This document shows, in pieces, positions 17,195-52,324 of a stretch of 64,000 nt of DNA. The DNA is taken from contig NC_053141.1 in the NCBI RefSeq assembly GCF_016808335.1, positions 22,662,640-22,726,639 on the forward strand, in the 5' to 3' direction. Position 1 is the first letter of the stretch; every line of letters begins with the position of its first letter. The notes under the pieces were generated by a model, which saw only the letters and a list, made by a program, of their open reading frames with translations, was not told where the DNA came from and did no database searches. Source of the stretch: Panicum virgatum. Lineage: Eukaryota; Streptophyta; Magnoliopsida; Poales; Poaceae. Position numbers and translations under genes: made by a program.

Positions 17195-20100
17195 CATATC
17201 CTCCAGAATCTGGTTAATTCTCTCTGTCTGACCATCTGTCTGAGGATGATAGGCCGAACTACGGATCAGTTGAGTGCCCAGAGCGGCGTGAAAGTGCTCC
17301 CAGAACCGGGCAATGAACTGAGTGCCCCGGTCCGAAATAATTGTCTTTGGAATCCCATGAAGACTCACAATACGGTCCATATACAGCTGAGCGTATTGCT
17401 TCGCTGTATGTGTGGTCTTTACCGGTAGAAAATGGGCCGACTTGGTGAGGCGATCCACAATAACCCATATCGAGTCATACCCCTTGGAAGTTTTGGGTAA
17501 GCCGACTATGAAATCCATACTGATGTCCTCCCATTTACAAGATGGAATACTCAAAGGCTGAAGAGGACCTGCTGCTTTCAAATGGCTCGCTTTGACCCTT
17601 CTACAGGTGTCACATTCAGACACATATTTAGCAATCTCCCGCTTCATTCTGGTCCACCAAAATCGTTGCTTCAAATCTTGATATATTTTATTGCTGCCCG
17701 GGTGGATAGAATACCTAGAGAGATGAGCTTCATCAAAGATTTGTTTTCGGAGCTCTAAATCTTTAGGTACCACCAAACGATCCTTGAACCATAGAATTCC
17801 AGCCTCATCTAAATGAAAACAATTCACCCCCGGGTCATTTTCTGCAAGTCTTTGGCGAATCTTTTCCATCCCGACATTATGTTTTTGAGCAGAAATAATC
17901 CGATCTCGAAGAGTTGGTGAAATGACTAAATTATCAAGACTGCCTTGCGTGATGATCCCCAAGTTTAACTTTTCCAGTTCATAACAAAGGGTCTCATTGA
18001 AAGGCACAATAGACAGGCAGTTGCACTGAGCCTTGCGGCTTAAAGCATCTGCAACCACATTGGCCTTACCCGGGTGATAATGAATCTCCAAATCATAATC
18101 CTTAATCAATTCCAACCATCGCCTTTGGCGTAGATTTAGCTCATTCTGGGTGAAAATATACTTGAGACTTTTATGGTCCGTATATATATGAACAGGATTT
18201 CCCAAAAGATAATGACGCCAGATCTTCAAAGCATGAACCACTGCTGCTAGTTCTAAATCATGAGTGGCATAATTTTCCTCATGTCGCCGGAGTGCTCGGG
18301 AAGCATAAGCAATTACTCGACGGTCTTGCATGAGGACACAACCTAAACCCGTACCTGATGCATCACAATATACATCAAAGGGTCGAGTAATATCTGGTTG
18401 GGCTAAAACAGGGGCAGATGTCAAAAGTTTCCTCAGGGTCAGGAAAGCCTGATCACATTTATCATTCCAATTAAATTTTACCCCTTTCTTGAGCAACTCA
18501 GTCATGGGCTTAGCAATTTTTGAAAAATCCGGAACAAACCGCCGGTAATATCCTGCTAGCCCAAGAAAACTCCGAATTTCCGGAACAGATGTAGGTGCTT
18601 CCCAATTCAAAACATCTTGGATTTTACTAGGGTCAACAGAAATTCCATCTTCTGATATAACATGACCCAGGAATGGAACCTTCTTCAGCCAGAACTCACA
18701 CTTAGTGAATTTGGCATACAACTCGTGTTCCCGAAGACGCTGGAGAACAATGCGAAGATGCTCAGCATGCTCTTCTTCATTTTTAGAATATATAAGAATG
18801 TCGTCGATGAAAACCACGACAAACTTATCCAATTCGGGCATAAACACCGAGTTCATGAGATACATGAAATGAGCCGGGGCATTCGTCAATCCAAATGACA
18901 TAACGAGGTATTCATAAAGCCCATATCGTGTGGAGAAAGCCGTTTTTGGAATATCTTCGAGCCTAATTTTTATTTGATGATAGCCCGATCGAAGATCAAT
19001 TTTGGAGAATACCTTGGCCCCGACTAACTGATCAAACAAAATATCAATTCGGGGGAGTGGATATTTGTTTTTGATAGTGACAGCATTCAAAGGCCGATAG
19101 TCCACACACAACCTGAGGCTTTGATCTTTCTTTTTAACAAAGAGCGCTGGACAGCCCCAAGGTGAAGTGCTAGGACGGATATAACCCTTATCAAGCAACT
19201 CCTGTAATTGCTTCTTTAGTTCTGCTAACTCATTGGGTGGCATACGATAAGGTCTTCTGGAAATTGGTGCCGTCCCCGGTTGCAATTCAATGGCAAACTC
19301 GATCTTACGGTCAGGTGGCATGCCTGGTAAGTCATCCGGAAAAACATCCGGATATTCACACACCACTAGTATTTCAGCCAGACTTTTGGCCTTAACCTGA
19401 TTCACTGTGGATGTCGAAGGTATATGGTCCACCAGATTCAAAGTCATAGAACCATGGATGGAAGAGTTAATATGCACAGATCGTGAGGTAGTGTCTAGAA
19501 GAACTCCTCGACCATCCATCCAGTTCATGCCCAATATAATATCTACACTATGAGTTGGTAGAATTATAAGGGCCGTAGGAAAAACTTTCTCTTGCAACTG
19601 TAGGGGTACTTGCTTAACAAATTGATTGGTGATTAATCTTCCCCCAGGTGAGTGAATATGGTACGGCTTGGACATGCTCTCTATTTTTAGTCCCAGTCTA
19701 ATGACACACTCCTTGCTAATAAACGTGTGAGATGCACCCGAATCAAATAATACGGTAACAGGTTGATTATGAACTGAAAACATACCCGCCATCACTTGAG
19801 CTCCCTCAGGAACATTCTCTAGCGTGGTATAATGCACGCGTCCTGGCTTGAAATGAGCCACTTTCGGCTTCTGATTGTGCTGATTAGAACCCTGAACTTG
19901 TTTAGGTGGCATAGGGCATTCGCGTGCAAAATGACCAACTTGACCACAGTTGAAGCAGGGAGGAAGATTAGGGCGTACACCCTGCGGCTGCACCCACGTC
20001 TTCTGCACATTTTGCTGAGGCACCGGAGATCTGGTTACCCCTTGAGGTTGTGGGTACTGCTGTGGTCTATATCCCGACTGGTACTGTGTTGGCCTATAAT

Positions 20101-20977
20101 TTGTCTGCTGTTGCGGAGGCCGATATGTGGTCTGATACTGCACTGGTCGGTACACTGGCCGATGCTGATAAGGCGCACGAGGGGGTCCGGCCTGAATCAG
20201 ACGAAACCTCTGATTAGCTTGACTAGAAGACCCACCCATTGGTGCCTTCCTCTTTTTCTCTGCCTGGTGAGCTATACGGGCGTCCTCTTGAGTGATAGCC
20301 CCATTGACCAGCTCACTAAAGGTGTTGAATTTGAACATAATCAAGCGTTCCTGGAGCTTGCTGCTAAGCCCCTGCCTGAAGCACGCTTGTTTCTTTTCAT
20401 CTGTTTCCACATGATACCCAGCATATTGAGACAAAGTGTTAAAAGCTTGAGCATATTGTGTCACAGTATTATTGCCCTGTTTCAGAGCCAAAAACTCATT
20501 GAGCTTCCTGCGAATCACCCCTGCAGGGATATGATGTGCCCTGAAAGCTTCCTTGAACTCATCCCAAGAAAACCGAGTGCCAGCAGGGAACATAGCTACG
20601 TGATTATCCCACCACGTACGTGCAGGACCTCTGAGTTGCTGAGCTGCAAATGATGCCTTGTCATTGTCATCATACCGATATAGAGTGAACTTGGACTCAA
20701 TGGTCCGGAGCCAACTGTCAGCTTCCAGTGGCTCATCCGCCTTATGGAAAAGCGGTGGCTGAGTACCCAAGAACTCCTGATACCCAGGGACAGGCGGCTG
20801 GTGATGATTATGATTTCCATGCCGCGGTGCAGCACCCTGATGAACGAGCTGACGGAGCAGTTCCGTCTGTTCATCGCGCCCAGTCAACATGGCCGCGATT
20901 GCCTCAACCAAATTGGGAGGCGGTGGCAGCGCATTAGCACCATTGGGCGCAGAGGAGTCATTATCGGTGTTCGGCAT
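17195..20977 (-). pseudogene. Copy A gag-pol (family II chromovirus), C-terminus lost
   Basis: This is the same polyprotein as copy B (see 27388-31827), starting at the ATG at 20977 (an in-frame ATG at 20992 lies 5 codons upstream). All gag, protease, RT, RNase H and integrase core motifs are present. The coding sequence is cut just after the catalytic Glu region (QTDGQTERINQILEDM) where the miniature LTR element joins at 17194/17195, so the integrase C-terminus and chromodomain are missing. A Trp next to the integrase core (residue 1152 in copy B numbering) is Cys here (17532 A versus C). Relative to copy B the whole block is shifted by exactly 10,850 bp with no net indel. Confidence 0.9.
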
Positions 20978-52000: not shown

Positions 52001-52324
52001 ATTCGGGCTGGCGAGCGCGAGGAGCTTCATGCGTCGTCCATGGCGAAACTGAGGAAGGAGAAGGTGAGGAGAGCGAGGCGCAGGAGGGAGCGAGGGCAGG
52101 TGGCGAGCTCAGGAGATGAGCGTGGTCGACTTGGCGTCGCTCGACGGCCGGAAAACCGGGATCGGCCTCCACGACGGCAACGACACAGCGACGGGAGGCT
52201 TCGGGAGGCGTCGGCGCCATTACTGCGACGTGCAGCACAGGAAGATGGGAGGTGGGTGTATGACAGGTGGGGTCCACGTGTAAGGAAATTTCTTAATTTG
52301 AATCCAAATTTTTGGATTGTTACA
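49067..52324 (-). mobile_element. LTR5, family II LTR truncated at its 3' (left) end; 3' LTR of copy D
   Basis: Enters the LTR at TAATGAGTTCTACAAACC, so the terminal part including TGTGACAGAACC is missing, and ends GGATTGTTACA at 52324, followed by the D polypurine tract. It has more small differences than LTR1-LTR4 in the GC block, and a 17-G run. Confidence 0.9.

Follow-up and report, generated by a model that had tools for sequence, protein, structure and literature searches.

Tandem LTR retrotransposons have been reported as common in plants, with 28 clear cases that start and end with an LTR, 10 of which have perfect 5-nt target duplications (PMC11899658). The rice tandems of that work (TLI1/TLI2, IDENTAM) are LTR-sharing, head-to-tail gypsy arrays of low divergence in which Tekay is enriched; the 2025 survey left open whether such arrays insert as tandems or form by later recombination, and set more complex structures aside (PMC11899658). 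Related joints are described in the 2-LTR circles of carrot Alex1 and Alex3, where LTR ends meet with small indels (PMC9324142), and in yeast, where Ty1 cDNA is captured at chromosome breaks and 40 of 56 wild-type 3' LTR inserts carry cDNA-only bases (PMC10802722). Here we describe, in a 64,000-nt stretch of the Panicum virgatum genome (the window), a locus that bears on how plant tandem retrotransposon clusters arise; what is new is that its junctions favour a complex insertion over recombination alone.

The locus resembles the rice tandems in being an LTR-sharing, head-to-tail gypsy array of low divergence in a plant, but differs from those described in PMC11899658 by its missing target duplication, its internal domains truncated at both ends, its abutting LTRs and the presence of inverted pieces, a second family and fillers. 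As in the Alex1/Alex3 circles (PMC9324142), LTR ends are joined with small indels, although the joint is here chromosomal, present twice and furnished with half a primer-binding site (PBS), and only the chromosomal product is seen. With yeast Ty1 capture (PMC10802722) it would share the patching of several pieces into a break and, at LTR ends, bases of the kind that are cDNA-only in yeast; in contrast, it spans approximately 40.5 kb, made up of 11 segments and fillers, at a natural plant locus, where capture is inferred.

As the sequence-only reading had proposed, the array is built head to tail on the minus strand from a single Ty3/gypsy chromovirus, in the order int-LTR-int-LTR-LTR-LTR-int-LTR-int (17195-53124; int, internal domain). 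Internal domain A (17195..23771) lacks the last 804 bp of its 3' end, and LTR1 (23772..27240), a full-length LTR with TG..CA ends, lies between A and B and serves, as had been claimed, as the 5' LTR of the former and the 3' LTR of the latter. Internal domain B (27241..34621; 7381 bp) carries a gag-PR-RT-RH-IN frame. LTR2 (34622..38075) and LTR3 (38082..41534) each miss 15 nt of the U3 end; LTR4 (41541..45011), the 3' LTR of C, is full length; internal domain C (45012..49044) has lost its 5' part and retains a chromodomain; LTR5 (49067..52324) misses 212 bp of the U5 end; and D (52325..53124) is an 800-bp 3' stub. The proposed order of four internal domains and five LTRs thus stands, but not their completeness, with A, C and D truncated and LTR2, LTR3 and LTR5 trimmed, and the array ends in the truncated domains A and D instead of in LTRs. 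The offsets were reproduced: A and B align without gaps at 10,850 (6577 bases, 6 mismatches), and the high ends of LTR1, LTR4 and LTR5 (27240, 45011 and 52324) lie 17,771 and 7,313 bp apart. Pairwise identities of at least 99% over kilobases exclude chance.

The array forms the central part of a larger composite, 13956 to approximately 54509, which lies within one host repeat and extends past the limits first assigned on both sides. Flanking the array are a small TRIM-like element and further fragments of the chromovirus, some inverted and some not. On the left, an inverted LTR piece, S1 (13956..15250, +; unit 25052-23758), reaches the LTR end plus exactly 12 nt of the PBS; beyond a filler lie the inverted LTR piece S2 (15290..15583, +; unit 24779-24486) and its fold-back partner S3 in array orientation (15580..16370, -; unit 24156-24946), then a 16-nt scrap (16371..16386, +) that holds 9 nt of PBS (TGGTATCAG) and a 10-nt match to the TRIM-like element. 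The latter (16387..17194, +) comprises the last 157 bp of a left LTR', a PBS, approximately 300 bp of interior, a PPT and a full 341-bp LTR' (16854-17194), whose exact end abuts A; a TRIM typically has a pair of short LTRs, a PBS, a PPT and a short interior without coding capacity. Among the 40 genome matches listed for it, 6 pairs are spaced approximately 610-700 bp apart. The TRIM-like element and the chromovirus have the same PBS sequence, which we take to be of the initiator-Met type. On the right stand an inverted internal piece, S5 (53140..54017, +; unit 33929-33053), and two inverted LTR pieces, S6 (54017..54155, +; unit 26965-26827) and S7 (54147..54481, +; unit 25297-24964), which share a 9-bp near-identical overlap. 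Splicing was considered for S5/S6, given the GT at the S5 end, and rejected since GTATGT is kept. The sequence-only reading was silent on the inverted flanking pieces and the TRIM-like element, and on an overlapping contig that lies beyond the window.

The element shows the domain order gag-PR-RT-RNaseH-IN (Pfam on pieces of B) followed by a C-terminal chromodomain, as in chromoviruses; PF00385 scores E 1.2e-9 in C and E 0.17 in B, whose frame ends 25 codons before those of C and D. We consider it a putative Tekay/Del-like element, the sole fitting trait being its LTR length of 3469 bp, within the 1.1-4.4 kb reported for Del/Tekay, a Ty3/gypsy lineage with long LTRs (PMC4029996). It differs from the lineage as described there by an extra 410-aa frame upstream of gag, in which no Pfam family was found at E 0.001. 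LTR2-5 and S1, S3 and S7 are 99.3-99.9% identical to LTR1 over up to 1.48 kb; relatives in the genome reach 73-91% (8 of 632 family PBS-LTR borders). On C9, a further copy differs from the array pieces roughly as much as these differ among themselves, so that a recent burst took place. LTR5 at first seemed a very diverged copy, but the second contig lacks many of its differences, which therefore look like base errors in the contig of the window. With these set aside, LTR5 retains 11 substitutions, one of them common to S7. Private substitutions are more numerous in LTR5-D than in other pieces, which argues that not all pieces stem from one template.

That second contig overlaps the window at 34429-63999 and repeats LTR2-LTR3-LTR4-C-LTR5-D-S5-S7-host with the same tabulated LTR substitutions, confirming the triple LTR; the assembly carries the overlapped sequence in two places. 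We rejected a segmental duplication: the inverted 29.5-kb copy, 1.14 Mb away, and the window end each abut a 10,000-N gap, and bins 45000 to 48999 are identical with differences growing toward both contig ends, so the two represent a single locus whose contig ends are redundant. A collapsed or chimeric repeat, which the sequence-only reading had named as its possible undoing, would fit this flawed vicinity of unmerged overlapping contig ends beside 10,000-N gaps, with errors at the contig ends. We nevertheless regard it as very improbable, as the second contig repeats the right part and agrees at the tabulated substitutions, the array lies inside contig X, away from its bad end, and the indels on which the contigs disagree read as base errors. 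Misassembly of the LTR triple is thus unlikely, while 13956-34428, including A-LTR1-B and the left-half junctions, is carried by one contig.

The LTR3-LTR2 junction (38074..38081, -; 2-bp overlap) consists of an LTR end, GC and TGGTAT, which is half a PBS, and then an LTR minus 15 nt, so that 8 nt beyond U5 are retained and 15 nt of U3 lost, a U5-to-U3 joint with small indels as in 2-LTR circles; the LTR4-LTR3 junction (41533..41540, -) is identical in sequence. By pattern search of the 1.13-Gb genome, five distinct junction sequences, representing 6 of 12 junctions, are unique to the locus: this LTR-LTR joint, S1/filler and TRIM-like LTR'/A, each of the latter two with a single occurrence, and C/filler/LTR5 and D/filler/S5, both seen on both contigs. 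In the literature listings examined we noticed no paper on an LTR-LTR joint with a PBS remnant in a chromosomal tandem, which does not prove that none exists. Pieces are joined through short overlaps and partly templated fillers. The filler at 15251..15289 contains a 15-nt stretch of LTR (unit 24044), a length reached in 0 of 300 shuffles, and the one at the right host border (54482..54509) has 17 nt (19 with neighbouring bases) of LTR 26082, again reached in 0 of 300. With 4 neighbouring bases counted, the 22-bp filler (49045..49066) matches internal position 33906 over 12 nt, and the 15-bp filler (53125..53139) matches the TRIM-like LTR' over 10 nt and LTR 24003 over 13 nt; unpadded, three of the five fillers match no longer than shuffles (P 0.23, 0.29 and 0.38). 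Two of the 18 element endpoints fall within the PBS and another lies 15 nt inward of an LTR end, a clustering with a post hoc binomial P of 6.3e-5.

A search for 5-bp duplications, suggested beforehand as a check, found none at the LTR borders or at the composite ends. In all 13 of the other host-repeat copies that were retrieved, the two halves are separated by 9-122 bp; here the composite stands between them, with approximately 53 host bases missing relative to one related copy (L028). The missing duplication speaks against the standard route, in which one or more integrase insertions form a tandem that is reshaped by unequal LTR recombination, deletions and inversion. In its favour, LTR-sharing tandems are frequent in rice, with Tekay enriched (PMC11899658), coordinates imply another LTR-sharing pair at C14 7695367-7705441, and LTR2 and LTR3 resemble a crossover product; however, abutting LTRs with half a PBS are impossible from homologous LTR-LTR crossover alone, and there are many breaks despite little divergence time. 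We hold this route improbable. The view that these are not independent insertions was right with respect to integrase. It had named two origins, unequal LTR recombination and insertion of concatemer- or circle-derived DNA. The missing target duplication, the PBS endpoints, the templated fillers, the inverted pieces and the second family favour a single complex insertion; unequal LTR recombination fits best as a later step, turning one LTR-LTR junction into two.

We think it probable that reverse-transcription products were captured by end joining at a chromosome break, followed by one unequal LTR crossover; the cluster looks like a break patched with freshly copied element DNA, not like a normal series of insertions. 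End joining would have sealed a double-strand break within the host repeat and, in doing so, taken up several products of the recently active chromovirus together with the TRIM-like element. Short homologies and copied fillers may have served to link linear cDNAs and strong-stop-type fragments end to end, in either orientation, yielding one LTR-LTR (2-LTR-type) junction with its PBS remnant and the LTR-sharing dimer B-LTR1-A. We infer the cDNA nature of the captured molecules, the pathway of repair and the order of the steps; the PBS remnants, 6-12 nt long and common to the internal domain and the tRNA copy, do not prove cDNA.

The capture model also does not account for the cut points of A (unit 28045) and D (unit 28040), which lie within 5 nt of each other. 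If co-packaged chromovirus and TRIM-like cDNAs had formed an extrachromosomal concatemer or circle, and the array were its linearised form, A and D would represent the halves of a single internal domain that was cut at the TRIM-like site: A ends against the TRIM-like LTR' end, and D is followed by the 10-nt piece matching the same LTR'. Plant tandem LTR arrays could then arise off-chromosome and enter by end joining without integrase. We find this doubtful; the close endpoint pairs of A/D and of S7/S1 (88 nt apart) suggest a circular permutation, but such closeness falls short of significance (P 0.055 and 0.108). Replicative rearrangement in place, in which template switching (MMBIR/chromoanasynthesis-like) during the copying of an ordinary insertion gave rise to direct and inverted pieces with microhomology, seems rather unlikely. 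Template switching accommodates short overlaps, fillers and inverted duplications, and the inverted pieces do derive from the same unit, but it predicts neither the PBS endpoints nor the joining of a TRIM-like element precisely at the end of its LTR, and 26264T (LTR4/5 and the C9 copy) versus 26074A (LTR1-3), both single sites, hint at more than one template.

With junctions nearly unaltered, the locus suggests both routes, multi-piece capture at a break and then unequal crossover of abutting LTRs, and provides marks to score elsewhere: PBS remnants at LTR-LTR joints, templated fillers, missing target duplications and lost host bases. The later crossover, which would have turned the LTR pair of the capture model into a triple, is supported by the identity of both LTR-LTR junctions and by LTR3, which is free of private substitutions and has 26181T and 26197A in common with LTR2. 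LTR2 also carries 26818T and 27038A, absent from LTR3, which under the crossover step must be later changes.

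Self-comparison of the window (C6:22662640-22726639), drawn from a 1.13-Gb genome in 627 contigs, revealed a 10,850-bp repeat unit on the minus strand that combines a 3469-bp LTR (TGTAACA..TCACA on the element strand) with a 7381-bp internal domain. The primer-binding site (PBS) TGGTATCAGAGCC, of putative initiator-Met type, begins two bases past the LTR, and a purine tract precedes the other LTR. Pieces of the frame of internal domain B matched gag, zinc knuckle, protease, RT, RNase H and integrase, while a chromodomain was clear in internal domain C (E 1.2e-9) and partial in B (E 0.17), where the frame stops 25 codons earlier. 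Because of the gag-to-integrase matches in B and the chromodomain in C, we class the element, from its coding sequence, as a Ty3/gypsy chromovirus; its LTR length, the sole feature compared, suits Del/Tekay as described in the available part of PMC4029996. Upstream of gag, a 410-aa open frame (32434-33663) overlapped by 21-bp repeats matched no Pfam family at E 0.001.

In order of increasing coordinate, the array reads A (17195-23771), LTR1, B, LTR2, LTR3, LTR4, C (45012-49044), a 22-bp filler, LTR5 and D (52325-53124), A to D being internal domains. The sequence-only reading had described head-to-tail units sharing LTRs; its offsets are correct, the 10,850-bp unit appearing in the self-comparison, and the match without net indel that it noted between A and B holds, with 6 differences in 6577 positions and zero gaps. 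B differs from C at 5 of 4033 positions and from D at 5 of 800. At the LTR3-LTR2 joint, a normal LTR3 end leads into GC and TGGTAT (the PBS's opening six bases), after which comes LTR2 lacking its first 15 bases, with a two-base overlap; LTR4 meets LTR3 in an identical joint, and 1 mismatch separates the two junction regions over 300 bases to each side. Genome-wide, a 35-base pattern (<=3 mismatches) placed this joint at four sites, two in the window and two on a second contig, and a looser pattern (0-30 bases between LTR ends, fixed parts mismatch-free) recovered the same four. The ordinary border between internal domain and LTR has 632 matches in the genome; of the 100 that were listed, a spacing of 10,850 occurs solely in the window's pair. 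A short inverted repeat, ATGCT-TAG-AGCAT (minus strand), lies at 28041-28044, where A and D are cut, and may have promoted breakage or polymerase pausing.

Misassembly, named in the sequence-only reading as what could undo the array, is countered for the LTR triple by the second contig, on which three distinct LTRs also stand in a row; window 13956-34428 is covered by one contig only. This second copy of window 34429-63999 lies inverted at C6:23820598-23850260 and terminates at a 10,000-N gap; another such gap adjoins the window's final base, 64000 (C6:22726639). Within 45000-49999 the overlap shows zero substitutions and one inserted base; across the whole overlap, insertions occupy 173 columns, deletions 81 and substitutions 139, their numbers climbing towards each contig's end, and the substitutions, largely clustered, could be alignment effects. 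The contigs agree at every tabulated LTR2-LTR5 substitution, the table comprising sites that vary among better-read copies and leaving aside errors that only the second contig shows near its ends, and disagree at indel sites 25968, 25969, 26142, 26263 and 27002. We read the two as one locus assembled twice with the overlap unmerged, leaving the same 29.5 kb twice on C6, and the block 22736640-23850260 may be wrongly oriented in the assembly.

On the left, A adjoins a TRIM-like element (16387-17194) in the opposite orientation, which retains a full 341-bp LTR' (16854-17194), 157 bp of the left LTR', a PBS, a purine tract and about 300 bp of interior. The exact LTR' end is joined to A, and this joint has a single occurrence in the genome. 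Relatives of the element are numerous; among the 40 matches listed of 2836 candidates, 6 pairs lie about 610-700 bp apart. Further left are three chromovirus LTR pieces, S3 in array orientation and S2 and S1 inverted, S1 passing the LTR end and halting 12 bases into the PBS. Right of D, pieces S5, S6 and S7 are all inverted and collinear with the element, with large gaps between them. The composite (13956-54509) thus totals 11 segments and 12 junctions, flanked by two halves of one host repeat with 101-bp units. These halves are 9-122 bp apart in all 13 further copies retrieved (L028-L040, from 38 outside matches listed), and about 53 host bases are absent relative to L028, an estimate since the copies have diverged (75-88% over the right-hand query). 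A search for 5-bp duplications, proposed together with the array, found none at LTR borders or composite ends.

Among the fillers, that between S1 and S2 holds a 15-nt element match (0 of 300 shuffles as long) and that at the right border a 17-nt match (0 of 300 shuffles reach 17), which grows to 19 nt when neighbouring bases are included. For the fillers of 22, 15 and 16 nt, the longest element matches do not exceed those in shuffled sequence (P 0.23, 0.29 and 0.38). The shuffle tests cover unpadded matches to the chromovirus. Padded by four bases per side, the 22-nt and 15-nt fillers match the element over 12 and 13 nt, the padded 15-nt filler matches the TRIM-like LTR' over 10 nt, and the unpadded 16-nt filler matches the TRIM-like element over 10 nt. 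Of 18 element endpoints, two fall within the PBS including the two-base spacer (P 2.9e-4), and the count rises to three when PBS and LTR ends are taken together (P 6.3e-5), in tests framed post hoc; close pairs among the other 15 were not significant (P 0.055; 0.108 given LTR or internal-domain membership).

The PBS and exact LTR ends are start and stop points of reverse transcription, and copied fillers suit polymerase-theta end joining. From what is directly observed, namely the anatomy of the composite, its joints, the absence of a target duplication and the presence of a second family, the most likely route as a whole is that linear or incompletely synthesised cDNAs were patched into a break in the host repeat, the abutting-LTR triple arising from a later crossover. 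Yeast Ty1 offers a tested parallel for capture at breaks, whereas capture in the window is what we infer; in the available text of PMC10802722, bases present only in cDNA marked 40 of 56 wild-type 3' LTR pieces, and some insertions consist of several pieces. Carrot LTR-LTR joints with small indels are interpreted as end-joined linear copies in the accessible part of PMC9324142.

Comparison of the internal domains and LTRs, also suggested with the array, gave few differences. Private substitutions at tabulated LTR sites number 5 in LTR1, 3 in LTR2, 0 in LTR3, 4 in LTR4 and 10 in LTR5, which has one more in common with S7; D carries 4 in 800, C 4 in 4033 and S1 2 in 1282. Ten of the 12 private changes in LTR1, LTR2 and LTR4 are C-to-T or G-to-A, a pattern that we would expect of methylated resident DNA. 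Assuming 1.3e-8 substitutions per site per year, the pooled 18 of 19,162 sites in LTR1-4, C and S1 would place the separation of the pieces of the order of 70,000 years ago, a sum that excludes LTR5 and D (about 14 of 4058). Similarity to LTR1 is only 73-91% in eight family copies whose PBS-LTR border is exact, but a dispersed C9 copy shows 3 differences from LTR1 over 2028 sites and 7 from LTR4-C over 2237, fewer than the 10 over 2239 between LTR1-B and LTR4-C; since this copy is about as near as array members are to each other, a burst of near-identical copies existed. Conflicting single sites, 26074A (LTR1-3), 26264T (LTR4, LTR5 and the C9 copy) and 24917T (LTR2-4), imply mosaics or recurrent change. 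The high part of LTR3 carries substitutions shared with LTR2 and LTR2's private base at 23961 is absent from LTR3, as would be expected if LTR3 were the middle copy produced when abutting LTRs cross over unequally; on that reading, LTR2's 26818T and 27038A, which LTR3 is without, must be later changes.

In the available part of a rice survey of LTR-sharing tandem LTR-retrotransposons (PMC11899658), which filtered out more complex tandems and left the mechanism undecided, Nipponbare yielded 66 LTR-RT-related candidates, 28 of them clear, with Tekay enriched. Perfect 5-nt duplications mark 10 of those 28, whereas the window composite has none. Match coordinates imply a second LTR-sharing pair of the chromovirus family at C14:7695367-7705441, and C11:62403445/62410440 may be another tandem. 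Given the rice survey and the implied C14 pair, the LTR-sharing kind is already known, and the variant here is an end-joined, TRIM-containing form with abutting LTRs.

Outside the composite, about 242 bp at 13671-13912, between host 101-bp units, were unmatched in the 13 other host-repeat copies compared, which suggests a further small insert or a variant in the host repeat. On the other side, three related copies (55493-55827, 58223-58777 and 63450-63999; 77-93% alike, the first starting TGTAACACCC) and an accompanying duplication (57251-58224 / 59777-60831) form another, older repeat cluster.
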